A stretch of 47,332 nt of DNA from Planctomycetota bacterium (GCA_002720975.1 PBIX01000104.1:1-47332); one strand, 5' to 3'. Positions 3,010 through 41,329 are shown, numbered from the stretch's first letter. Made by a program: numbers and translations. The notes: generated from the sequence alone by a model not told the origin.

Positions 3010-3956
3010 ATCCCGGTGCACGCTGCTGGGTCCTGAACCTGGACGCCGAGCACGAACTGGAGACGGTGGGCGCCTATACGCCTTCGGCCCACATGCGCTC
3101 GGTCGTGGCGGCCCAACAACGCAAGTTGCTAGGCACCCTGCTCGGACCGGATGACATCCTGCTGACCGAGGCCAACCTGGACGGCTACACGGAATCGGGA
3201 GCACTGCGCGGACTGTCTGGCCTGGCCTGGTGCCCGACCCCCCGCGCTCTCTCGATGCTGGATGCAGTGGGCGCCATTCCAGAATCCGCGCCATCCGTGG
3301 ACATTCTCCGACGGGTGAACGCGCGGCCCTTTGCCAGCGAAGTGCGTGCGCCACTGGTGGAAGCCAGTTTCGAGAAGCACTTGGCCACGGACCTGGATAT
3401 GGCTCTGGAGAGGCTCGCACAACCCGCCCCGCTGGGCTGGTTGGTGCGGCGCACGTTCGGAGCTGCAGGGCGAGGACGACGCCGGCTGGCGATAGGCCAG
3501 CCCTCGGCCTCCGATCGGACCTGGCTCGTAGCAAGCCTGCGCCTGGGACCCCTTACCATTGAGCCCTGGGTCGAGATCGAAAGGGAGTACACACGCTCGG
3601 GGTGGGTGGAATCCGATGGTGCGGTGTTGATCGCCCCACCCTGCTTTCAAAAGACCAATAGAGAGGGAGCCTGGGAACATACCGATACCGCCGACCCGGA
3701 CCTTGTACCCAGCGCAGACGATCAGCTCCTCCAGCAGGCTGTGGAACAGGCAGGCCGCGCGCTGGCGCGTGCCGGGTACTTTGGCGCTTTCGGGATCGAT
3801 GCGTTCCGCCACAGAGTGCCGGGTGAGAGCCACCGCCCCCTGGTGCTCAACCCCATGAGCGAAATCAACGCGCGTTTCACCATGGACTGGTTCCAGGGGA
3901 TGAGCGGACGCACGCCCCACCGCGCGACCGAGGGGCCGGGTGTGGCGACAACATGA
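3006..3956 (+). CDS. ATP-grasp-like protein coupled to the DUF455 gene
   Basis: 316 residues; the start ATG shares ATGA with the DUF455 stop, implying translational coupling. The C-terminal third has ATP-grasp features: GAFGIDAFRHR followed by LVLNPMSEINARFTMDW, where the E-x-N pair is the usual metal/ATP-binding end of the fold. The central part (about residues 120-215) looks like the B-subdomain. The N-terminal part has no motif I recognise. ATP-grasp enzymes join a carboxylate to an amine or thiol through an acyl phosphate; the substrate here is unknown. The pairing with a di-iron protein suggests a two-step modification pathway, which is inference. Confidence 0.7.
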   Translation: MNPGARCWVLNLDAEHELETVGAYTPSAHMRSVVAAQQRKLLGTLLGPDDILLTEANLDGYTESGALRGLSGLAWCPTPRALSMLDAVGAIPESAPSVDILRRVNARPFASEVRAPLVEASFEKHLATDLDMALERLAQPAPLGWLVRRTFGAAGRGRRRLAIGQPSASDRTWLVASLRLGPLTIEPWVEIEREYTRSGWVESDGAVLIAPPCFQKTNREGAWEHTDTADPDLVPSADDQLLQQAVEQAGRALARAGYFGAFGIDAFRHRVPGESHRPLVLNPMSEINARFTMDWFQGMSGRTPHRATEGPGVATT

Positions 3957-4026
3957 GCGGATCCTCCGGGGTCCTCCCCAATGCCAGGGACTACACTCTG
4001 CTGCGGCCGCTCCGGCTCCCTGTCCC

Positions 4027-5412
4027 ATGACCCGCTCCCCTCTGCTCCTGATCTTCGCCCTGGGCCTACAGGCCTGTGGCCAGCAAGAGACGTCGTCCGC
4101 CCAGCCGGACATCATCCTGCTGACGGTGGACACCCTGCGCACCGACAACGTCAGCGCCTACAACCCGAATAGCCGGGCGCGCACGACTCACATCGACTCC
4201 CTTGCGGCCGAGGGCATCCGCTTCGAGCGGGCCTACTCGCCCATTTCGGTCACCGGACCCGCCTTCTGTTCGATGCATACGGGCCGCCGGCCCGGGCTGC
4301 ACAGGGTGGTGCTCAACATCTTCCGGGGCGGCACCCCCCTACCGAGCGACGTCTCCACCCTGGCACAGGCACTCAAGGCCCAGGGCTACAGCACCGGCGC
4401 CTTCGTGTCCGGCTTCACCCTGCGGCCAGAGCTCGGGCTGGATCGTGGTTTTGATACGTACGAGTGGCCCGAAGAACTACAACGTCCAAGTGAGGAAACG
4501 GCCGCCTCCGCAGTGCGTTGGCTACAAGGCCAGGAGGGGCCCGTCTTCCTGTGGTTCCACTCCTTCGACCCCCACGGGCCTCTGCGAAAGTGGCCCAACC
4601 CCAAGCCCCGACGCAACTGGGAGAGGAGCCCCGACAAGCTGGAGCGCATCGCCAGCTATCAGCGCATCGCAGGTATCAGCGACCCAACCTTCTACGCCGA
4701 GCGCTACGCAAGCGCGGTGGAATACGCCGACAAGCAGGTGGGCCAGCTGCTGGATGCCCTACGTCAAACGCAGCGCATGGACTCGGCGGTTATCGTCTTC
4801 AACGCCGATCATGGGGAGAGTTTCGACGAACGCGGCCTGTGGTTTGATCACGGCACGACGGCCTTCGAGGAGCAGCTGCACATCCCTCTCATCATCCGGC
4901 TGCCCGGAGCACAACGCGCCGGCGAAGTGCAGCCCGCCCTCGTCAGCCTGCAGGACGTGGCCCCAACCCTACTGCAGCTGATCGGTGCGCCGGCCCTCGA
5001 GGGTGCCGATGGCCGTACGGACATTCTCTCGGGTGGCGGGCATTCTGTATTGACCGGGGAAAGCAGCCACTGCAAGGAGGAGCAGGGCGAGGCCTGTGCC
5101 CCCACCGGTCATGCCGGCAAGATGTTTGTGGCCCGTGACGAAACCCGCGCCGTGGTGCGACGCAGCACGATTGCTGGCGTGATCTACGAGTACTACGACC
5201 GGATCGGCGACCCAGCCGAACGCAGCCCGCTCTCCAACCCCCCCCCCCCAGCCGATCTCAAGGCCCTGGTGGACGCCATGGCCGATGAACGCGCCCGCAT
5301 GGACCTGACCGACCCTGGGTCCGGCGATGAAGATCTCTCCCCCGAAGAGGCCGCCGAACTCGAAGCCCTCAAGGCGCTGGGCTACGCGGACGGGGCCAGC
5401 GAAGAGGACTGA
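4027..5412 (+). CDS. Lipoprotein hydrolase of the sulfatase/alkaline phosphatase superfamily
   Basis: 461 residues from ATG 4027, chosen because it begins a lipoprotein signal with lipobox LQAC (C17). The sulfatase fold is clear: ILLTVDTLRTD gives the first metal aspartate, HSFDPHGP a middle motif, and NADHGESFDERGLWFDHG the metal-binding DHG and distal histidine. In the nucleophile segment SVTGPAFCSMHTG, T76 lies where true sulfatases have the Cys/Ser converted to formylglycine, so this is more likely a Thr-nucleophile phosphohydrolase or phosphotransferase than a sulfatase. A run of 12 C (5238-5249) encodes a Pro tract near the C-terminus. The tail is strongly acidic and ends with an ALKALGYADG segment common in this group. 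Confidence 0.8.
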   Translation: MTRSPLLLIFALGLQACGQQETSSAQPDIILLTVDTLRTDNVSAYNPNSRARTTHIDSLAAEGIRFERAYSPISVTGPAFCSMHTGRRPGLHRVVLNIFRGGTPLPSDVSTLAQALKAQGYSTGAFVSGFTLRPELGLDRGFDTYEWPEELQRPSEETAASAVRWLQGQEGPVFLWFHSFDPHGPLRKWPNPKPRRNWERSPDKLERIASYQRIAGISDPTFYAERYASAVEYADKQVGQLLDALRQTQRMDSAVIVFNADHGESFDERGLWFDHGTTAFEEQLHIPLIIRLPGAQRAGEVQPALVSLQDVAPTLLQLIGAPALEGADGRTDILSGGGHSVLTGESSHCKEEQGEACAPTGHAGKMFVARDETRAVVRRSTIAGVIYEYYDRIGDPAERSPLSNPPPPADLKALVDAMADERARMDLTDPGSGDEDLSPEEAAELEALKALGYADGASEED

Positions 5413-11901: not shown

Positions 11902-13173
11902 TCAATGGGGCGGGACGCCCTCCTGGAAGTCCTCCTTGGGAATCCAGCGCACCAAGCGGCCCACGGTGAGGCCCTGGACCACGATGGAAAACACCACCAC
12001 CACGTAGGTCATGGTGACGATCAGGTCCCTGGATGGCAGGTCCGCGGGCAAGGAGAGCGCCAGGGCCACGGAGATTCCTCCGCGCAGGCCGCCCCAGGTG
12101 AGGATCTTGACGGCGTGTGGGGTGAAGGGACGCCAGCGGCGCAGGAGGGAGACAGCCCCGCCCACCGCCAGGAAGCGCGCCAGCAGAACCAAAGGTATGG
12201 CCGCCAGCCCGGCCATGATGGAGCTCCCGCCCAAGGGGAGGATCAGAATCTCCATGCCGATGAAGACAAAGAGCACCACGTTCAGGATCTCGTCCACGAG
12301 CTCCCAGAACACATCCAACCGTTCGATGGTCAAGGAGGACATGGCAAGCCGCTTGCCCTGGTTGCCAATCATCAGTCCCGCCACCACGACCGCCAGAGGA
12401 CCCGAGCTGTGCAAGGCAGCAGCCAAGGAGTAGAGGCCGGCGCACAGAGCCAGGGTCAACAGGACCTCCACCTGATACTGATCCACCTGACGCATCAGCT
12501 GGACGCAGATCCAGCCTGCCGCGAGGCCAAGCACCAGGCTCCCCCCCACCTCGCGCAAGAACAGCGAAGCCACTCCAGCCCCATCCAGTACACCGTGATC
12601 GCCGTGCCCTCCCACGGCCATGCCGGCAATGACAATAAACACAACGACCCCGATGCCATCGTTGAACAGGGACTCACCGGCGATCTTGGTCTCCAGGCTC
12701 TTGGGGGCGCTCGTCCCCTTGAGAATGGCGAGCACGGCGATGGGATCCGTTGGGGAGATCAAGGCTCCGAACACCAGGCACTCGATCCAACTTGCCTCAA
12801 GGCCAAGTACGGGGAGGGTCAGGTTGATAAGCCCCCCGACCAAGAACGTGGACACCAGCACGCCAACGGTGGCCAGGCCACCGATGATCCACTTGTGTTG
12901 ATAGAGACGATCGATCTTTACGTGCAGGGCACCTGCGAATAGGAGAAAGGCCAGCAGCACGTCGAGCAGAGCATGGGCGAAGTCCATGCGCTCGAGAAGG
13001 TCGCGGGTGACCTCGCGCAGGGCGGGGGGGGCCACCAGCACCCCCAAGCTCGAAACCACCAGGGCAAGGACCATCACCCCTATGGTCGTTGGCAGGCCCA
13101 GGAAGCGGCAGTTCACCCAAGCCGTGAGAGCGGCAAAGACCAGCACCACGGAAAGAAGATCAAACAACTCCAT
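11902..13173 (-). CDS. Na+/H+ antiporter, CPA1 (NhaP/NHE) family
   Basis: 423 residues with about 12 hydrophobic segments. Family motifs are plain: LLDVLLAFLLFAGALHV early, ISPTDPIAVLAILK, AGESLFNDGIGVVVF (the Asn-Asp ion-binding pair), FIGMEIL, and WGGLRGGISVALALSLP in the late membrane region. It exchanges cytoplasmic Na+ (or K+) for protons across the inner membrane, which suits a marine or saline habitat. There is almost no hydrophilic C-terminal tail. It lies 78 bases upstream of the efflux operon on the same strand and may or may not share its transcript. Confidence 0.9.
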   Translation of the reverse strand: MELFDLLSVVLVFAALTAWVNCRFLGLPTTIGVMVLALVVSSLGVLVAPPALREVTRDLLERMDFAHALLDVLLAFLLFAGALHVKIDRLYQHKWIIGGLATVGVLVSTFLVGGLINLTLPVLGLEASWIECLVFGALISPTDPIAVLAILKGTSAPKSLETKIAGESLFNDGIGVVVFIVIAGMAVGGHGDHGVLDGAGVASLFLREVGGSLVLGLAAGWICVQLMRQVDQYQVEVLLTLALCAGLYSLAAALHSSGPLAVVVAGLMIGNQGKRLAMSSLTIERLDVFWELVDEILNVVLFVFIGMEILILPLGGSSIMAGLAAIPLVLLARFLAVGGAVSLLRRWRPFTPHAVKILTWGGLRGGISVALALSLPADLPSRDLIVTMTYVVVVFSIVVQGLTVGRLVRWIPKEDFQEGVPPH

Positions 13174-13278
13174 GGGCGCGGAAGATAACGGACCGACGGG
13201 GTCGGGTGTCAGGCCTGATTCCCGCCCTTACCCATCTACCCTGAAGACGGGCACCCCCGCACGTGTTGAACCTCAGAC

Positions 13279-14766
13279 CTACTGGCGCAGGATCCAAGCG
13301 AGGAACTGCCCCTCCAGGTCTTCCTTCGTGAGCTCGGCACTCGATAGGGGCACGCCGTAGAGGCCCTTGAGCGCCTCCTCCAGGTCCTCCTTGGTGCCTG
13401 CCAGATGAACGAGCAGCTGGGAGAAGACCTGTTCTGCGTCCTTGGCGCGTTCGCTGTGCAGCCAGTAGACAAAGGCCGTGCGGTAGGCGCGCAGGAGTTC
13501 TTTGTAGTCGCCTCGGAATGTCGACCCGGGCACAGGCATGTCCGCTGCGGCCAAGCCCAGGAATGGCGCTCGGACGATCTCATTGTGGCTGTCGGCGTCA
13601 TTGCGCAATCGGAAGGTGCGCAGGCGATCGCGACTGTCCTTGTAGCCGTTCTTCTGGGCGGCGCCCAAGGGTCCGATGAAACGGTCTGCGCCGTAGTTGG
13701 ATTCCTGCCTCCACCAACTGTCGGCTGAGATCGCAGGCAGCCAGCCGCCCTCGGACAGGCCACCGGGAACAAAGCGCTCGTAGGCCTCGGTGCGACGTGA
13801 GCGCAGGTCCCCATCCGCCCGCGTGCGACACTCACCAAACACATCTATCACCAGATTCACCGCCAGGGCACCGGCGAAAGACTCGGGCACCCGATCGCCG
13901 TAGTAGCTGTCCACCAGGGAGTTGGTTGCCAGCTGGGTCAACTGCTGCTCCATTCCTGTAGCGACGCGGGAGTTCATGGCTATTCCCGCAGACCAGTTGC
14001 TGGCTCCGGTCCCGAACTCCAGGGCCATGACCTTGTAGCGGTCCATGTAGAACTGGGTCCAGACAGCCACGTCATCCTGCCAGAAGCTCGATTTCAGGTC
14101 GGGGTATACCCAACCCGCCAGGGACACCCACTCGATGAAGGGCAGCCGGCGCGGAGTCATGATGATCGGCTCAGGCTTGTCCTCGCGGTCCAACCCCATG
14201 AACGCGCCCGTACCCATGGCCTCAGCCAGGCGAGCTGAGATTTCCCGTACTGAAGCCCGGGAGTTCAGACCCACGTAGAGGTCCGACGATTCATCGCTTT
14301 CCCAGCCCTCCATGCCTTTGACGAGCTTGGCAATCTGACTCCCCCGCACGCGCTTCATCCACTTTGAAAGTTCTTTGATGTCGCTACGGATGGAGTCAAT
14401 CAACTCGGCATCCGCACTGGGCTCGACCCAATCCAGCCAGCGGTCCTGCAGAACGAGAACGCTGTCGCAGACCTTCTTGAAATTGTCTGCGTCGGGTAGC
14501 GAGCGGGCACTCTCCCTATCGAGCAGCAGCTCAAACAACCCCAGTCGAATACGGATGTAACCCTGATCGAGGAACTCCTCAGTGGAGAAGGTGTCAGGAG
14601 AGGCGTCGGCGCGTCCACTGCGCACGAGAACCTCCTTGACGAGCCGGTCATGAGGGATCGAGCTGAATGACCGCTGCCCAAGAGCAGAAGGCGTCCCCAC
14701 CCAGAGGAGGGCAATAAGCAGAACGACCGCTTTCAGCGGTCGGCGAGCATCTATCGTGTCGTGCAT
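13279..14766 (-). CDS. Orphan secreted protein, about 495 residues
   Basis: I chose ATG 14766 because it gives a textbook signal peptide (positive n-region, VVLLIALLWVG core, cleavage near ALGQ). An ATG at 14817 would add 17 polar residues in front of it. The mature part is mostly helical by composition and rich in Trp/Tyr, with no catalytic motif I recognise. The middle contains GWVYPDLKSSFWQDDVAVWTQFYMD and the C-terminal quarter EDLEEALKGLYGVPLS. It is transcribed after the STT3-type gene with a gap of 100 bases, so it may belong to the same envelope-modification locus. No function is assigned. Confidence 0.7.
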   Translation of the reverse strand: MHDTIDARRPLKAVVLLIALLWVGTPSALGQRSFSSIPHDRLVKEVLVRSGRADASPDTFSTEEFLDQGYIRIRLGLFELLLDRESARSLPDADNFKKVCDSVLVLQDRWLDWVEPSADAELIDSIRSDIKELSKWMKRVRGSQIAKLVKGMEGWESDESSDLYVGLNSRASVREISARLAEAMGTGAFMGLDREDKPEPIIMTPRRLPFIEWVSLAGWVYPDLKSSFWQDDVAVWTQFYMDRYKVMALEFGTGASNWSAGIAMNSRVATGMEQQLTQLATNSLVDSYYGDRVPESFAGALAVNLVIDVFGECRTRADGDLRSRRTEAYERFVPGGLSEGGWLPAISADSWWRQESNYGADRFIGPLGAAQKNGYKDSRDRLRTFRLRNDADSHNEIVRAPFLGLAAADMPVPGSTFRGDYKELLRAYRTAFVYWLHSERAKDAEQVFSQLLVHLAGTKEDLEEALKGLYGVPLSSAELTKEDLEGQFLAWILRQ

Positions 14767-14866
14767 CGTGTCGGTGAGCAGATCGGCAATGGTGCTGACG
14801 CTCGGGGAGAGGGGCACAGGATGCCAGAATGATCCGGCACTGCCCTCCCTGGGGTGGAGGTTTCAC

Positions 14867-17080
14867 CTAATCGTCACGGATCGAGGTGCACGCCCCCCCA
14901 CCCAGGACAGCCTGGAGGGCGACCTCGGCGCTGCCCTTGCGTTGGCCTATCACCCACCGAAGAGGGGCGGCGGCCTCCCCGGACTCCTCATCCTCGGTGC
15001 TCCAGGGCACCCGCAAGCGCGCCAGCCCGTCCGCAGCCACCACGGCCTCCCCCATCCAGACGAACTGGGCCTGCTGCCCGTTGAAGTTGCGCCGCACGCG
15101 CGCACGCAGGACCTGACCCGCGGATCCGCTCACCTCCAACACCGCCCCGGGTACCGTCTCCCATATCCACCCGGCGGATTGGCCATCGGACATCTCTTCG
15201 CCAAAGGCCACCAGACGTAGAAAACCCGGGTGAGGCCGACCCGGAACCTCATCCCCGTAGGCGCACGGGAGGAGCCGCCCCAGGAGGCTGTCCTCAGAGA
15301 ACTCCGATCGGGAGTCGTCAGCCAAGACGCGCATCATCGTGTCCAGGTTGCGCATCCAATCGGACCCGATGAGAACATGGCGCACACGCCGCTCATGGCA
15401 CAGGGCCTCGGCATCTTCATCGGAAGCAGCAGCCAGGAAGCGCCAAGGATCCACAAAGCTGTCACGGCCCAGGTACGAGCCGAAGTTCGTGGCCACGGTT
15501 GGCCGCCCGGCACCCCACTCGATCATGTGACCCAGATCCCACTGAGCGAGGACGGCTTCCTCATCGGTGCCGTGGGTTCCCAACCAGGCACAAAGCCCAC
15601 GCAGTCCGCGCTCGCGTTCCACGGTGAGGGTCTGCGGAAAACGTGAGGCCGCAGTGGATCGCGACAAGGTGCTGGAAACCGTGGCGGTGTGAGTCACCAG
15701 CGGGAGAGCCAACGCGAGAGCCAGCAACGCATGAGGGAGGCGACGCGCTGGCAATGAACGCGTGAGGTGCCCCAACCAGACTCCGAGCAGAACGGCCATG
15801 GGTGCCGCGAGACCCTCGGCGAATCGCCGTTGAAAGAGGGCCATCAGCAGGTAAAGGAGAACAGCTGGTAGATAGGGCAGCAGGGCTCCGCCCGCGCGGC
15901 GCGCCCCGTGCCACCAGGCCAGGGGCAGGAGAACCACACCCCATCCCAACCAACGCGTCAGGGGCTCCAAGCCGCCGATGAGACCCCACCCCAGAGGTTG
16001 AGATTCGTGGATGCGACCCATGAAGCGGTTGGTGCCCGTGGCCCACCGCGCCCCCTCCGCCACGCTCTCGCCCAGCGGTCCCCAAGCCAAGACGAGGCCA
16101 GCCAGCCCAAGGAATGCGATCAATGCCCGAGGGTAGAGACGCAGTCCGGCTCCGTGCTCTTGGCTGTCCGGCTTCATGAGCCAGAGGGGCAGGCAGGCCA
16201 GAGCACCAACGCCGAGGAAGCCCACATGGAACCAGGACAGGTTGATGATCTCGAGCGCTCCCCAGGGGCTCGCGGCAGCATCGGGCCATATCACCAAAGC
16301 TGCGGCCAAATGGAAGACCGCGCCAAAGGCACCCAGACCTGGGAGCTCGCTCGGCTTGGCCCGGAACATGCGCCACAGGAGGGCCAGCTCCAACGTGCCT
16401 ATGAGCAGGAGGGACGCCACCCATGAGGCGAGAGCCAATCCCGCCAAGACCCCGGCTATGACTCCGAACATGACCGAACGACGAACACGCAGCAGGCCTG
16501 AAGGCTCAAGCCCACGCGCGGCGAGCATGAGCCAGCTCAACTGAAGAAAGGAGACGAAGGCGTGATGGTCCCCGTTGCCCAATCGGGAGTAGCGCACGGA
16601 CGCAAAACAGAAGGCATGGTAGAGACCAGCCAACAGGGCGGCGCGTGTTCCTCCCAGGTACCCAGCGGCCAAGGCCACCAACAAGCTGGTCAGAGCTCCC
16701 AGAACCCATGGCACGCTGGCGACGTGACGTTCGACGTACCGCGCCCGGGCACTCGCATCCGTCGGCGCCCATGGAGCGAGCACGGTGTGCAGGACGCGCG
16801 TGTACATGGCCGGCCAGGGAATGGGTGCCCCACCCTGCCCCTCGAACTCCGGGAAGGCCAACAGGGGATCGCGAACCTGGACCCGCCCCTCATCCGTCAA
16901 GGCGCGCTCCAGGCGGCGCATGTGGTAGTGGCTGTCGGGATCGGCGCTGAACCAGTCCGTGGTCAGGGTCGGGCTCGCAGACACCCGATAGCCGTTGGCC
17001 CCGCGCACCCACAGAGAAACGCAGTACACCAGGACCAGGGTCCCGATCAGAGCCGTGCGGGAGCTCCGCGCCGGGCTCAT
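14867..17080 (-). CDS. STT3/PglB-type oligosaccharyltransferase-like membrane protein
   Basis: 737 residues from ATG 17080, which overlaps the upstream gene's stop by ATGA. About 12 membrane segments fill residues 10-460, and a soluble domain follows. STT3-family landmarks occur in the right order: FSADPDSHYHMRRL (D47-x-D49, metal site of the first loop), RLGNGDHHAF (D171-H172-H173), RIHESQP (E359, at the place of the SxxE loop), LFQRRFAEG, and QWDLGHMIEWGAGRPTV (513-529, variant of the WWDYG acceptor-binding motif). These enzymes move a lipid-linked glycan to Asn in exported proteins. The genes for the glycan donor are not nearby, so the transferred group and acceptor are unknown. Confidence 0.8.
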   Translation of the reverse strand: MSPARSSRTALIGTLVLVYCVSLWVRGANGYRVSASPTLTTDWFSADPDSHYHMRRLERALTDEGRVQVRDPLLAFPEFEGQGGAPIPWPAMYTRVLHTVLAPWAPTDASARARYVERHVASVPWVLGALTSLLVALAAGYLGGTRAALLAGLYHAFCFASVRYSRLGNGDHHAFVSFLQLSWLMLAARGLEPSGLLRVRRSVMFGVIAGVLAGLALASWVASLLLIGTLELALLWRMFRAKPSELPGLGAFGAVFHLAAALVIWPDAAASPWGALEIINLSWFHVGFLGVGALACLPLWLMKPDSQEHGAGLRLYPRALIAFLGLAGLVLAWGPLGESVAEGARWATGTNRFMGRIHESQPLGWGLIGGLEPLTRWLGWGVVLLPLAWWHGARRAGGALLPYLPAVLLYLLMALFQRRFAEGLAAPMAVLLGVWLGHLTRSLPARRLPHALLALALALPLVTHTATVSSTLSRSTAASRFPQTLTVERERGLRGLCAWLGTHGTDEEAVLAQWDLGHMIEWGAGRPTVATNFGSYLGRDSFVDPWRFLAAASDEDAEALCHERRVRHVLIGSDWMRNLDTMMRVLADDSRSEFSEDSLLGRLLPCAYGDEVPGRPHPGFLRLVAFGEEMSDGQSAGWIWETVPGAVLEVSGSAGQVLRARVRRNFNGQQAQFVWMGEAVVAADGLARLRVPWSTEDEESGEAAAPLRWVIGQRKGSAEVALQAVLGGGACTSIRDD

Positions 17081-19005
17081 TGACGCTGGCGCAGGAAGTG
17101 CACGCACTCTCGGGCGACGCGCCCCAGGACCTCGCGCTGGTCTTCGCAACGCTGGACCCCATCGGGCAGCAGGTTCCAGCCGCGATCGTATACCTCGATG
17201 TCCTTGGCGGCGGAGTCCAGGGGAATCTGGATGATGCCCGAGTCTGTCCAGACTCCCACGTCTCCCCAAGCGCCCATGACTCGCGCGCGTTCAACGGCGG
17301 GGTCGAAGAGGCTCTGACCCAGAGAGTAGCCCCCACTCAGTGCCGGGTCGGCACCCAGGCACTCGAGCAGGGAGTTGGAGAGATCCACGTGACTGGTGGG
17401 ACGATCCTCCTGGCCGGCTTCGATCCCTGGCCCCCGCATGTAGAAGGGAACCTCCATCTGCTCCGGGCTGAAGTTGCTGGTGTGGCCCCAGAATCCGTTC
17501 TCGCAGAACTCCTCGCCGTGGTCCCCGGTCACGACCACCAGGGTCTCCTCGGACAGGCCCGCCTGCTCGAGCGCGTCCAGGATCTGGGTCGCCGTACGAT
17601 CCGCGTGCACGACGGAGTTCATGTAGGTGTTCTTGATCTTCTCGCGCAGGTCCACAAGCTCAGGCCCATCGGTGGTGATACCCAGCTCCACGTAGTTCAG
17701 CTTGTCGACGGTAGGTTGATGGGGGCCGCCCGGGTTGTAGTAGGGCTGGTGCGGCGCATCGAGCAATATGAAGCAGAAGAAGGGCTCCTCGTTGGACCGC
17801 TCCCCCACCCAGTCTGTGAAAGCCTGAGCCACGAAGCGGTCCTTCTTATAGGAGATGCGCGAGAGCTCCTCGCCCTCCTCATCCCTGAAGCGATCCACAA
17901 CGTCCTCGTCCGCCATGCCCGACCAAGCCGTGGGACGGAACTCCGGGAAGTTCATGGAGGCCGCCGAGAACACGCGTCGCTCGTAGCCCTCCTCTCCAAG
18001 TGTGTCCATGAGCACTGGGCTAGCGTGCTCTGCCAGCGCCTTGAACCAATAGGAGCCGTGCAGGCCGTAGAGCATGCTGAACAGACCAAAGCGGGTTCCG
18101 TTGCCACCGGAGATGTGGTTCGTGAACACCCGTGCGTCCTGTGAGAAAGCATGCAGGCCCGGTGTCAGCTCCGGGTTGAACATGTCCCGCCGCCAAGAGT
18201 CGAGCACAACGATAAGAATGTTCGGGCGCGGGCCATCAGCCGGCAGGACAGGGCGCGCGTGGGGATAGTCCAGTTCCGCGGACTCGGGCATCACCTGCAA
18301 GAGAGGCGGCCCACCGGATTCGCCCTCCAAGAAACGTGAGAGGTTCGCACGGGGATAGAGAGGCAGGGGTCGGGCCGCCATCTTCAACTCCCAGTCGCCG
18401 GTCATATCCGCGGCCGCGTACACGCTCTTCTCCAAACCCACCACGGGCAACAAGAAGAGGAGCAGGACAACCCGCGGTTGCAGCAGCAAGCGGGTGCCAA
18501 GGCCCAAGGTCCTGCGCCGGATCAGGTCCGACAGGAACCAGCTCCAGCTCCAGTACAGCAGGCTCGCACCCACCAGGAAGATGAGGGCCACCGAGCCCCA
18601 AACCGGCAGGCCCAGGTGCACCGCGTCCGCCGAACCCGGGGTGAGGGCCACGTTGAGCACCGCTCCATCGAAGTGACGGCCCAGGATGCGCCAGATGATC
18701 GTGTCCGTGTAGAGCAGGGCGAGAAAGAAGATGCCGACGGCTGATTGAAGGAAACCGATCAAGCGCGGGCGCTCGACGCTGCGATGCAGGAGCCCAAAGA
18801 TCAGCCCCACGGGCAGGGAGAGGATGGCCACCGAGGAGAGCAGGGCCAGCCCCACGTAGACACGGGTCCAGGGGGAGGAGTCCACGGGCAACCGATACAG
18901 CCATCCCGACCCGACGATGGCGCCAGCCAGGACACACAGAACCCAGAGCTGGAAGCTGGCCTGGGCAATCAACCTGCGGGTGGGATAGGGACCAGGAGTG
19001 GACAC
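17077..19005 (-). CDS. YejM/PbgA-type membrane protein with sulfatase-fold periplasmic domain
   Basis: 642 residues. Five predicted membrane segments (about 12-36, 48-74, 84-105, 135-158, 178-197) precede a periplasmic alkaline-phosphatase-superfamily domain. The loop GRHFDGAVLNVALTPG matches the YejM/DUF3413 signature, as does MNFPEFRPTAW later. Catalytic-type motifs are ILIVVLDSWRRDMF, GGNGTRFGLFSMLYG with T304 at the nucleophile position, DAPHQPY, and VVVTGDHGEEFCENGFWGH. YejM in enterobacteria senses LPS and controls LpxC stability; other relatives modify envelope lipids. Here it is the first gene of an operon with the STT3-type transferase, which suggests a joint role in envelope glycoconjugates (inference). 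Confidence 0.82.
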   Translation of the reverse strand: MSTPGPYPTRRLIAQASFQLWVLCVLAGAIVGSGWLYRLPVDSSPWTRVYVGLALLSSVAILSLPVGLIFGLLHRSVERPRLIGFLQSAVGIFFLALLYTDTIIWRILGRHFDGAVLNVALTPGSADAVHLGLPVWGSVALIFLVGASLLYWSWSWFLSDLIRRRTLGLGTRLLLQPRVVLLLFLLPVVGLEKSVYAAADMTGDWELKMAARPLPLYPRANLSRFLEGESGGPPLLQVMPESAELDYPHARPVLPADGPRPNILIVVLDSWRRDMFNPELTPGLHAFSQDARVFTNHISGGNGTRFGLFSMLYGLHGSYWFKALAEHASPVLMDTLGEEGYERRVFSAASMNFPEFRPTAWSGMADEDVVDRFRDEEGEELSRISYKKDRFVAQAFTDWVGERSNEEPFFCFILLDAPHQPYYNPGGPHQPTVDKLNYVELGITTDGPELVDLREKIKNTYMNSVVHADRTATQILDALEQAGLSEETLVVVTGDHGEEFCENGFWGHTSNFSPEQMEVPFYMRGPGIEAGQEDRPTSHVDLSNSLLECLGADPALSGGYSLGQSLFDPAVERARVMGAWGDVGVWTDSGIIQIPLDSAAKDIEVYDRGWNLLPDGVQRCEDQREVLGRVARECVHFLRQRQ

Positions 19006-19175
19006 GGCGGGAATAGGAATTGCTAGGGCGCGGGCGGGCGGTGGAGCGGCGAGGATCCTCGGATGGGTGTCGCACTCCTATCCGAGTCAATGGGGGAGAA
19101 TAGCGGCCCATTTCACAAAAAGCTCCCCCAGCCGCTAACTCGGGCCCCCCACCACGGTCCAGGGCCACGCCGGGC

Positions 19176-19204
19176 TTGCCTGTACGCCGCGGGGGCCGTA
19201 TCTT
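19176..19204 (+). promoter_or_regulatory. Candidate sigma-70 promoter for tRNA-Ser
   Basis: TTGCCT (19176-19181) and TATCTT (19199-19204) are separated by 17 bases and would start transcription near 19211, about 38 bases before the tRNA. Each hexamer matches consensus at four of six positions. The same transcript would run into the PEGA lipoprotein and murD. Confidence 0.45.
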
Positions 19205-19248
19205 CCGCGACCGATCCGCTCGCCGCCCGCGCGCGTGAGATCTTGGCC

Positions 19249-19338
19249 GGAGAGGTGGCAGAGCGGCTGAATGCGCCACATTGCTAATGTGGTGTCCCTT
19301 CACGGGGACCCCGGGTTCGAATCCCGGCCTCTCCGCCA
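19249..19338 (+). tRNA. tRNA-Ser (anticodon GCT)
   Basis: A complete class II tRNA. The acceptor GGAGAGG (19249-19255) pairs with CCTCTCC (19328-19334), then discriminator G and an encoded CCA (19336-19338). The anticodon stem CCACA/TGTGG holds loop TTGCTAA, anticodon GCT, which decodes AGC/AGU. A long variable arm (GTCCC...GGGAC type) and the T-loop GGTTCGAATCC are present. The next gene starts only four bases after the CCA. Confidence 0.97.
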
Positions 19339-19342
19339 TTCC

Positions 19343-19849
19343 ATGCACCCAACAACAACTCCCCACCACGCTCACCCCAGGCCGCTGGGATCCTGGCGAC
19401 AGGTGCTTCCGAGTCTGCTGTGTGGAGCGTTTCTGCTCTGCGGCTGCCGCACCCGGCGCATCCTTGCCGTGGAGTCGGTCCCCCCCGGAGCATTGGTGCG
19501 CTTCGACGAGGAGATCATTGGGCACACGCCGCTGGAACATGAGTTCGTGCACTACGGCAAGCGCCGCCTGACCCTCTACCTGCCCGGTTACCACACCTGG
19601 TCGGAGCGCCTCGATCTCGACCCTCCCCTGCGGGCGCGTTTTCCCTTGGACGTGATCTGGGAGTTGATCATTCCCCTGGGTCGAACCGACCGCCGCCTCT
19701 ACCACGTGGAACTGCAGAGGGACCGGGGAGAGGACGACGGCGACGATGTTCGAGTGGACATCTTCCTTGAGCGGGCCTGGGCGCGTCGAGAGGCTGCTGG
19801 CAAAGCCGACGAGAAACCAAACTCCAAACCCATCGACGGATGTCCGTAA
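19343..19849 (+). CDS. PEGA-domain lipoprotein
   Basis: 168 residues from ATG 19343; an in-frame ATG at 19271 lies inside the tRNA and is not credible. A longish polar N-region is followed by VLPSLLCGAFLLCGC with lipobox LCGC (C35). Then VESVPPGALVRFDEEIIGHTPLEHEF is a standard PEGA module, and YLPGYHTWSERLDLDP a second stretch of the same kind. PEGA lipoproteins are surface or periplasmic proteins of unknown partner, frequent in Planctomycetota and Myxococcota. There is no Shine-Dalgarno site, because the tRNA ends four bases before. Its end overlaps the murD start by 10 bases. Confidence 0.8.
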   Translation: MHPTTTPHHAHPRPLGSWRQVLPSLLCGAFLLCGCRTRRILAVESVPPGALVRFDEEIIGHTPLEHEFVHYGKRRLTLYLPGYHTWSERLDLDPPLRARFPLDVIWELIIPLGRTDRRLYHVELQRDRGEDDGDDVRVDIFLERAWARREAAGKADEKPNSKPIDGCP

Positions 19850-39841: not shown

Positions 39842-41329
39842 TTGAAAGTCGCATTCACTACGCCGGAGATCTTCTCCCTGGTTCGCAGGACCAACCTCGC
39901 GGAGATTTCCGAGTTCCTACCAAAGACCCTGCACGCCCTGGGAGCGGACGTGCGTGTCTTCATGCCTCTGCATGGGGATCTTGCGGCTGAGAACATCCTG
40001 GACCTGGCGTTCGCGGGCGATGTGGTCATACCCGAGGACAAGGGAGAGCTGACCCTCAAGGTCTATACGGCCACGCTGCAGGGTACGAACCTGCCCTTGG
40101 TCATGTTCGACCACGCTGAGCTGTTCCGCAATCGGCACCCCTACGGTGACGACAATGGCCCCTATGCGGACAACTGGCGGCGCTACGCGGCCTTCGCCCG
40201 GGGCGTCCTGGCGTCCTTTGAACTGCTGCGCTTCTCGCCCAGCGTGATCCACTGCATGGACTGGACCTCGGGGCTGATTCCCCTGTTCCAGGAGCTTGAG
40301 TACCGTTCACAAGACCCCAAGCACCCGGCGGCCAAGGCTGGCACGTACTTCGCTCTGCACAACCTGGCCATGCAAGGGACATTCGAACGCGAGATCTTGC
40401 CCAAGATAGGGGTTCCCCTTGAGTACTTCCGCTCGGTGGATGGTTTGGAACTCGGGGGGCGCGTCAACTTCCTCAAGGCCGGCATCGAGTTCGCCACGAT
40501 CGTCGGGACTCACTCTCCCAACCAGGCCCTGCGCCTACAGGCCGAGGAACGGGGGGATGGGCTCGACGAGTCTTTCAAGAGACGTAAGAAGGAGCTGGTG
40601 GGTGTCCTGACCGGCATCGACTACCGCGCCTGGGACCCGGGCACGGACATGCTCTTGGCCCAGCCCTACTCACTTGAAGAGGCGGACCCGCTGAAGGGTA
40701 AGCGCAAGTGCAAGGCCGCCCTGCAGGAGGGGCTGCGCCTTGCTGTGGAACCGCGTACGCCCGTTATCTCCATCATCGGTCGCTTCGACTCTGACAGCGG
40801 ATTCGATCTCTTGGCTGAGGCCATCACCCCCATCCTGGAGCGCAGCACCCAGCTGGTCATGATGGGTCCGGGCCAACCCGAGGTGCTTGAACGCCTGCGC
40901 ACGGTAGAGCAGACCTTCTCCAACTGCTGCCGCGTCCTTGAGGGCTACAACGTCAATACCGCCCACACCCTGATGGGCGGGTCGGACATTCTGCTCCTCC
41001 CCGGCCACTTCCATCCGTCCAATTCCCTGTGTGCCATCGCCATGCGCTACGGCACCGTGCCCATTGCATACGGCAGCAGCGGCCTGGAAGACACAATCAC
41101 CGATATCCAGAAGGACCCCAAGAAGGGTTCCGGCCTGTTCTTCGATCACTATGGAGTTGGCAGTCTGCTCACGGCCCTTGATGCGGCCCGCAGCCTGTTC
41201 AAGAAGTCCAAGGACTGGAAGATGTTTGTTCGACGTTGCATGGAAGAGGACTTCTCCTGGCGAGAGAGCGCCAGGAACCATCTTCTCGCCTATCGACGAG
41301 TTACCCGCAGGGCACGTCCCGGCAAATGA
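39842..41329 (+). CDS. Glycogen-synthase-like GT5 protein with lost donor-site residues
   Basis: 495 residues from a TTG start (LKVAFTTPEI, the usual GT5 N-terminus). The fold is recognisable from end to end (IHCMDWTSGLIPL, YFALHNLAMQGTF, VGVLTGIDYRAWDP, RYGTVPIAYGSSGLEDT). Yet the family's donor-binding residues are changed: KTGGL is SLVRRTNLAE (K to R15, both Gly lost), R-x4-K is R314...S319 (Lys lost), and FEPCGL is FHPSNSL (Glu replaced by H391). It may use another donor, be regulatory, or be inactive. No Shine-Dalgarno site is seen. It overlaps the ROK kinase by ATGA. Confidence 0.75.
   Translation: MKVAFTTPEIFSLVRRTNLAEISEFLPKTLHALGADVRVFMPLHGDLAAENILDLAFAGDVVIPEDKGELTLKVYTATLQGTNLPLVMFDHAELFRNRHPYGDDNGPYADNWRRYAAFARGVLASFELLRFSPSVIHCMDWTSGLIPLFQELEYRSQDPKHPAAKAGTYFALHNLAMQGTFEREILPKIGVPLEYFRSVDGLELGGRVNFLKAGIEFATIVGTHSPNQALRLQAEERGDGLDESFKRRKKELVGVLTGIDYRAWDPGTDMLLAQPYSLEEADPLKGKRKCKAALQEGLRLAVEPRTPVISIIGRFDSDSGFDLLAEAITPILERSTQLVMMGPGQPEVLERLRTVEQTFSNCCRVLEGYNVNTAHTLMGGSDILLLPGHFHPSNSLCAIAMRYGTVPIAYGSSGLEDTITDIQKDPKKGSGLFFDHYGVGSLLTALDAARSLFKKSKDWKMFVRRCMEEDFSWRESARNHLLAYRRVTRRARPGK

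Follow-up and report, generated by a model that had tools for sequence, protein, structure and literature searches.

Well-studied bacterial oligosaccharyltransferases (OSTs) are of the PglB kind. Campylobacter PglB (PDB 3RCE, 5OGL) is encoded in the pgl glycan cluster. In the archaeal long-form enzyme, AglB of Archaeoglobus fulgidus (AfAglB; PDB 3WAK, 7E9S), three residues hold the metal, Asp47 in the first DxD motif and Asp161 with His163 in the Asp-His-His motif; Glu360 of the TIXE motif lies nearby (PMC8342417). The enterobacterial protein YejM/PbgA/LapC (PDB 6V8Q, 6XLP) combines a DUF3413 membrane domain with a periplasmic domain of the alkaline-phosphatase superfamily, and acts on the control of LpxC through LapB and FtsH. 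In Salmonella YejM, Asp268, Thr302, Asn403, Arg451 and His468 surround a loosely held magnesium, and the status of the protein as an enzyme is disputed (PMC7576196). Here we describe an OST gene and an overlapping gene for a YejM-like protein in a 47,332-nucleotide stretch of planctomycete DNA (GCA_002720975.1, PBIX01000104.1:1-47332; hereafter the window, with positions counted from its first nucleotide). A search of the open-access literature found no paper pairing Planctomycetota with an oligosaccharyltransferase, nor one pairing YejM with an oligosaccharyltransferase.

Family and fold of the oligosaccharyltransferase

The OST of the window is of the AglB type (the archaeal long form) over its full length. 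A family profile built from 65 relatives matched AfAglB along its full length (3e-39), and gave weaker matches to human STT3A (7e-12) and to the best PglB entry (3.5e-4). The structure of the OST was predicted with confidence (pLDDT 91.9, pTM 0.92). Its nearest solved structure was AfAglB (Z = 33.3, 676 residues aligned, root-mean-square deviation 2.9), followed by eukaryotic STT3 (Z of about 29), DPY19 (25.5), PglB (24.0), PMT (21.3) and ArnT (18.6). The assignment to the AglB type was made because profile and structure scores both favour AglB over PglB, PMT and ArnT. Among family models, Pfam AglB_L1 scored above its cut-off, and NCBIfam archaeo_STT3 gave an E-value of 1.9e-38, yet stayed under the trusted score of that subfamily. 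A preliminary description of the window had named the protein an STT3/PglB-type OST; the STT3 part of that name holds, whereas the PglB part does not. Campylobacter PglB resembles the planctomycete protein in its STT3 fold, its catalytic residues and its bacterial host, but its profile and structure matches are much weaker than those of AglB and no pgl-like cluster surrounds the planctomycete gene; membership in the PglB group was rejected on these grounds. PMT and ArnT, which the same description had named as possible better matches, were rejected as well, since neither family was matched in Pfam or NCBIfam searches and both gave lower Z scores.

The STT3 motifs occur in the order first described: D47-P-D49, D171-H-H173, E359-S-Q361 and W514-D-L-G-H518 (numbering of the 737-residue protein). 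Asp47, Asp161, His163 and Glu360 of AfAglB aligned with Asp49, Asp171, His173 and Glu359, and all four residues are invariant in the 65 relatives. External loop 5 carries [IV]-x-E359 in 65/65 relatives, without conservation of the TIXE Thr. Arg419, which aligns with the arginine in the Q-N-R-F segment of AfAglB, is present in every relative covering that position. The planctomycete OST therefore shares with AfAglB the full-length fold, the Asp/Asp/His metal site, the I-x-E glutamate of external loop 5, the QxRF arginine, the W-D-x-G-H core and the C-terminal AglB_L1 domain. It differs in its bacterial host and in its low identity (16-20%), and reads A-T-N-F-G where AfAglB has A-N-P-F-Q. The place of the DK/MI motif (residues 574-582) is highly variable among the relatives, and its alignment is of low confidence. 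Chance as the source of the similarity and of the motif set is excluded.

The host is a planctomycete, and contigs with related OSTs are nearly all labelled Planctomycetota; the contig scan used peptide patterns of this OST family and gives no measure of other bacterial OSTs. An OST match was found in 31 of 292 genomes sampled evenly across the phylum, and 24 of these 31 belong to two families of the order to which the window belongs. Within the family of the window, an OST match was present in 55 of 81 genomes and the YejM-like protein in 64 of 81. Plasmid records searched for wider relatives gave no match. One OST contig labelled Gemmatimonadetes (L098) falls within the planctomycete tree, by misbinning or transfer, and one labelled Acidobacteria is a long, partial outlier. 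An archaeal-type OST in a bacterial host, with an altered acceptor motif and a conserved coupling to a YejM-like gene, is a real, well-conserved and unusual member of its superfamily.

The YejM-like protein and its coupling to the OST

The two genes overlap by the four bases ATGA, as the preliminary description had stated: the OST start codon (ATG, 17080-17078) overlaps the TGA of the YejM-like gene (17079-17077). The overlap is real and is retained in two relatives of the same genus (L041 and L043). A longer OST reading frame from 17269 was rejected as overlong, the ATG at 17080 needing no extension.

The upstream protein, also rightly described as YejM/PbgA-like, matched Pfam Sulfatase (9.6e-33) and DUF3413 (PF11893, above cut-off), and the best structural match of its model was YejM (Z = 34), with LtaS at Z = 28. 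NCBIfam NF038282 (LapC/YejM/PbgA) gave an E-value of 2.9e-34 but 118 bits against a trusted score of 825. Because that score was not reached, we call the protein YejM-like rather than YejM. It has both domains of the enterobacterial protein, and identity over the structural match is about 21-22%. Six residues, D269, T304, H419, D495, H496 and H508, are invariant in 12 sequences, and by motif reading they are kept in all 30 YejM-like sequences examined, with or without an OST. They provide the complete set of the phosphoglycerol/phosphoethanolamine transferases LtaS and EptA, namely a Thr nucleophile and the metal ligands; unlike in those transferases, the N-terminal region is DUF3413-like. Salmonella YejM has Gly-Arg451 in place of Asp-His (495-496) and Asn403 in place of His419, where His419 and His508 were mapped to Asn403 and His468 by position. 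Because metal ligands lost in enterobacterial YejM are kept here, the residue pattern makes a phosphotransferase or phosphohydrolase more probable than a pure lipopolysaccharide (LPS) sensor. Of the earlier proposal of a lipid-headgroup or LPS-sensing enzyme, the enzyme is thus favoured and the pure sensor has become less likely. The nucleophile of sulfatases is Cys or Ser. A sulfatase function was rejected for this gene, as the nucleophile position is a Thr in G-N-x-T-R.

The YejM-like gene and the OST gene adjoin in 22 genomes of 8 genera, as determined by comparing places between two family surveys. In one of these genomes they are separated by the gene of p512, a co-conserved protein listed in Table 1. 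In most of the 8 genera the two genes share four bases (ATGA, GTGA or TTGA), and in one genus they lie about 18 to 134 bases apart. In a tree of 74 OSTs, built by a quick method with no bootstrap, the YejM-linked OSTs formed a single clade (20/20, SH-aLRT 100) with one change of state. An OST of this clade was never seen without the YejM-like gene, while the YejM-like gene does occur without an OST. Gene order varies between YejM-OST-p512 and YejM-p512-OST, and YejM-p512 is also found without an OST; p512 directly follows the YejM-like gene in three OST-less genomes (L114, L115 and L116). Among planctomycete OSTs this coupling belongs to one clade, and different fixed neighbours accompany the other clades.

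Proposed pathway and alternative readings

We consider it fairly probable that the locus encodes an active, single-subunit protein OST of the AglB-long type together with a co-translated envelope phosphotransferase or phosphohydrolase, and that both serve one envelope pathway. The activity and acceptor of the OST, the role of its partner and the shared pathway are what we infer from the observations above. The OST would work at the periplasmic side of the inner membrane and would bind a glycan linked to polyprenyl phosphate, whose biosynthesis genes would lie elsewhere in the genome. Asp49, Asp171 and His173 would hold a divalent metal, and Asp49 and Glu359 would activate the acceptor. The glycan would be moved onto exported proteins, with asparagine as the most likely acceptor and a sequon that is possibly relaxed or different, given the altered Ser/Thr pocket. 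The YejM-like protein would sit in the inner membrane and act as a phosphotransferase or phosphohydrolase, using a Thr nucleophile and a metal site of the LtaS/EptA type; it would most likely modify envelope glycans or glycolipids, and would be co-expressed with the OST for the same envelope pathway. Campylobacter EptC, an EptA-type enzyme, modifies both lipid A and the N-linked glycan (PMC10525099), and offers a precedent for pairing a phosphotransferase with N-glycosylation.

In agreement with the preliminary description, which had noted the absence of a glycan cluster nearby, Pfam scans of other window genes revealed no pathway for a lipid-linked glycan. The sole glycosyltransferase among them was glycogen-synthase-like (39950-41329). 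Elsewhere in the genome there are three PF02397 initiating transferases, two PF00953 matches, four PF01943 flippase-type genes, Wzy_C/WaaL-type genes and LpxC. The presence of these genes makes both a lipid-linked glycan supply and an LPS pathway plausible in the host.

Several observations weigh against the proposed pathway. The Pfam STT3 model (PF02516), a check put forward in the preliminary description, matched the OST weakly and below its cut-off (18.9 against 24.5 bits). The model of the YejM-like protein is of moderate quality only (pLDDT 70). The WWDYG motif, which forms the Ser/Thr +2 pocket, is incomplete in the OST, where the family pattern is xWDxGH. Position 513, which corresponds to the first Trp, is mostly H/Q/S/A/P/N among the 65 relatives, with Trp not in the tally, and D515 is retained in just 44 of them. 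The position of AfAglB Arg154, placed by reading the profile alignment, is Tyr in 63 of 65. These differences from AfAglB concern substrate recognition. Because of the lost Trp, the variable D515 and the Tyr, an N-X-S/T specificity cannot be assumed, and the acceptor rules may depart from plain N-X-S/T. Finally, a YejM-like gene neighbouring PEGA, MurD and ClpC genes is also found in genomes that lack an OST, so its linkage with the OST may be partly positional.

In the extreme form of that last point, which is compatible with the other readings, an OST would once have landed behind a pre-existing YejM-like gene and stayed there without shared function. The recurrence of the YejM-like gene at the same PEGA-MurD-ClpC site without an OST speaks for this, as do the other OST clades with other fixed neighbours, for example DUF5916 with an overlap of its own. 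The link nevertheless persists in 22 genomes of 8 genera whose OSTs share about 33-48% identity, including cases of a rearranged order around p512, and we regard purely positional coupling as a serious but doubtful possibility. Another reading concerns the acceptor: the OST might, like an O-antigen ligase, pass lipid-linked glycans to an acceptor other than protein, for example the lipid A core or a different envelope glycolipid, with the YejM-like partner modifying or sensing the same lipid. Such a role would agree with the sequon pocket changed across the family, with the WaaP/Kdo-kinase-like and methyltransferase genes that adjoin a different planctomycete OST clade, and with a YejM-like partner in a genome that has LpxC. 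It appears unlikely, as the OST retains the full AglB architecture (the globular sequon-binding core, the Glu of external loop 5 and the AglB_L1 domain) and the genome has separate Wzy_C/WaaL-type genes. We know of no STT3-family enzyme that makes O-links, which counts against a transfer of the whole glycan to Ser/Thr or some residue other than Asn. Such O-glycosylation would fit the lost first Trp and variable Asp of WWDYG and a heavily O-glycosylated planctomycete S-layer protein, whose enzyme was not named in that study (PMC5088730), but it is quite improbable given the invariant Asp49 and Glu359, whose AglB/PglB counterparts are proposed to activate the Asn amide.

Returning to the AglB-type OST acting with a phosphotransferase, a bolder and rather unlikely extension is that this planctomycete branch gave up the Ser/Thr sequon pocket for a different acceptor, and that in one clade the OST and an active membrane phosphotransferase function as a unit, the latter decorating the glycan that is transferred or the lipid that carries it. 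Such a glycosylation-plus-phosphorylation envelope system has not been described so far. The data suggest a form of bacterial protein glycosylation that has been little explored and in which the acceptor pocket is unusual. An AglB-type family that has diversified, with its members concentrated in two families within a single planctomycete order and with several lineage-specific operon partners, would widen the known range of bacterial protein glycosylation. Its enzymes, whose acceptor pocket is altered by nature, could be studied and used in glycoengineering.

Surrounding genes and other planctomycete OST loci

Table 1 Features of the OST locus in the window
Feature	Position	Strand	Remarks
AglB-type OST, 737 residues	14867..17080	-	multi-transmembrane GT-C domain, globular core with WDLGH, AglB_L1 C-terminal domain
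First DxD motif, D47-P-D49 (predicted metal-ligand and Asn-activating Asp49)	16934..16942	-	D49 in 65/65; profile-aligned to AfAglB GND
Second DxD-type motif, D171-H172-H173	16562..16570	-	D171 and H173 in 65/65; profile-aligned to AfAglB DHH
External loop 5 TIXE equivalent, R356-I-H-E359, then S-Q-P	16004..16015	-	E359 in 65/65, I/V357 in 65/65; AfAglB TIAE aligned
WWDYG equivalent, Q513-W-D-L-G-H518, first Trp absent	15527..15544	-	W514, G517 and H518 in 64/65 (one gap)
YejM/PbgA-like membrane protein of the alkaline-phosphatase superfamily, 642 residues	17077..19005	-	N-terminal transmembrane region (DUF3413) and periplasmic catalytic domain; D269, T304, H419, D495, H496, H508 intact
ATGA overlap, YejM-like stop and OST start	17077..17080	-	sequence reading
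p512, secreted protein of up to 512 residues without known family, co-conserved neighbour	13279..14817	-	

A promoter scan of 13000-19400 gave nothing above chance. One sequon is present in p512 and three in the YejM-like protein, from which no conclusion was drawn. A tRNA-Ser (GCT) gene at 19249-19338 overlaps the start of an open reading frame for a PEGA protein called at 19271; the true start of the latter is probably further downstream. The window also encodes a reprolysin-like metalloprotease and a sulfatase-family protein (245-2095 and 3940-5412).

A second set of OSTs has a DUF5916 gene as upstream partner (L058, L062, L067, L072, L073, L075, L076, L080, L081, L082, L090 and L094). The two loci of this set that were read (L058 and L062) have a TGATG overlap, and a 3-hydroxyacyl-CoA dehydrogenase gene is often found downstream. 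In L050, L054, L055, L056, L059, L063 and L071 the OSTs, tandem or single, have a methyltransferase gene and a WaaP/Kdo-kinase-like gene after them. The same two genes follow the OSTs of L046, L052, L060 and L069, which have sulfatase-like genes and a gene for a PMT_2-like membrane protein on their upstream side. Two tandem YejM-like genes stand at the PEGA-MurD site of L120 (4077-7735) without an OST, and survey places suggest tandem YejM-like genes in G066-G069 too.

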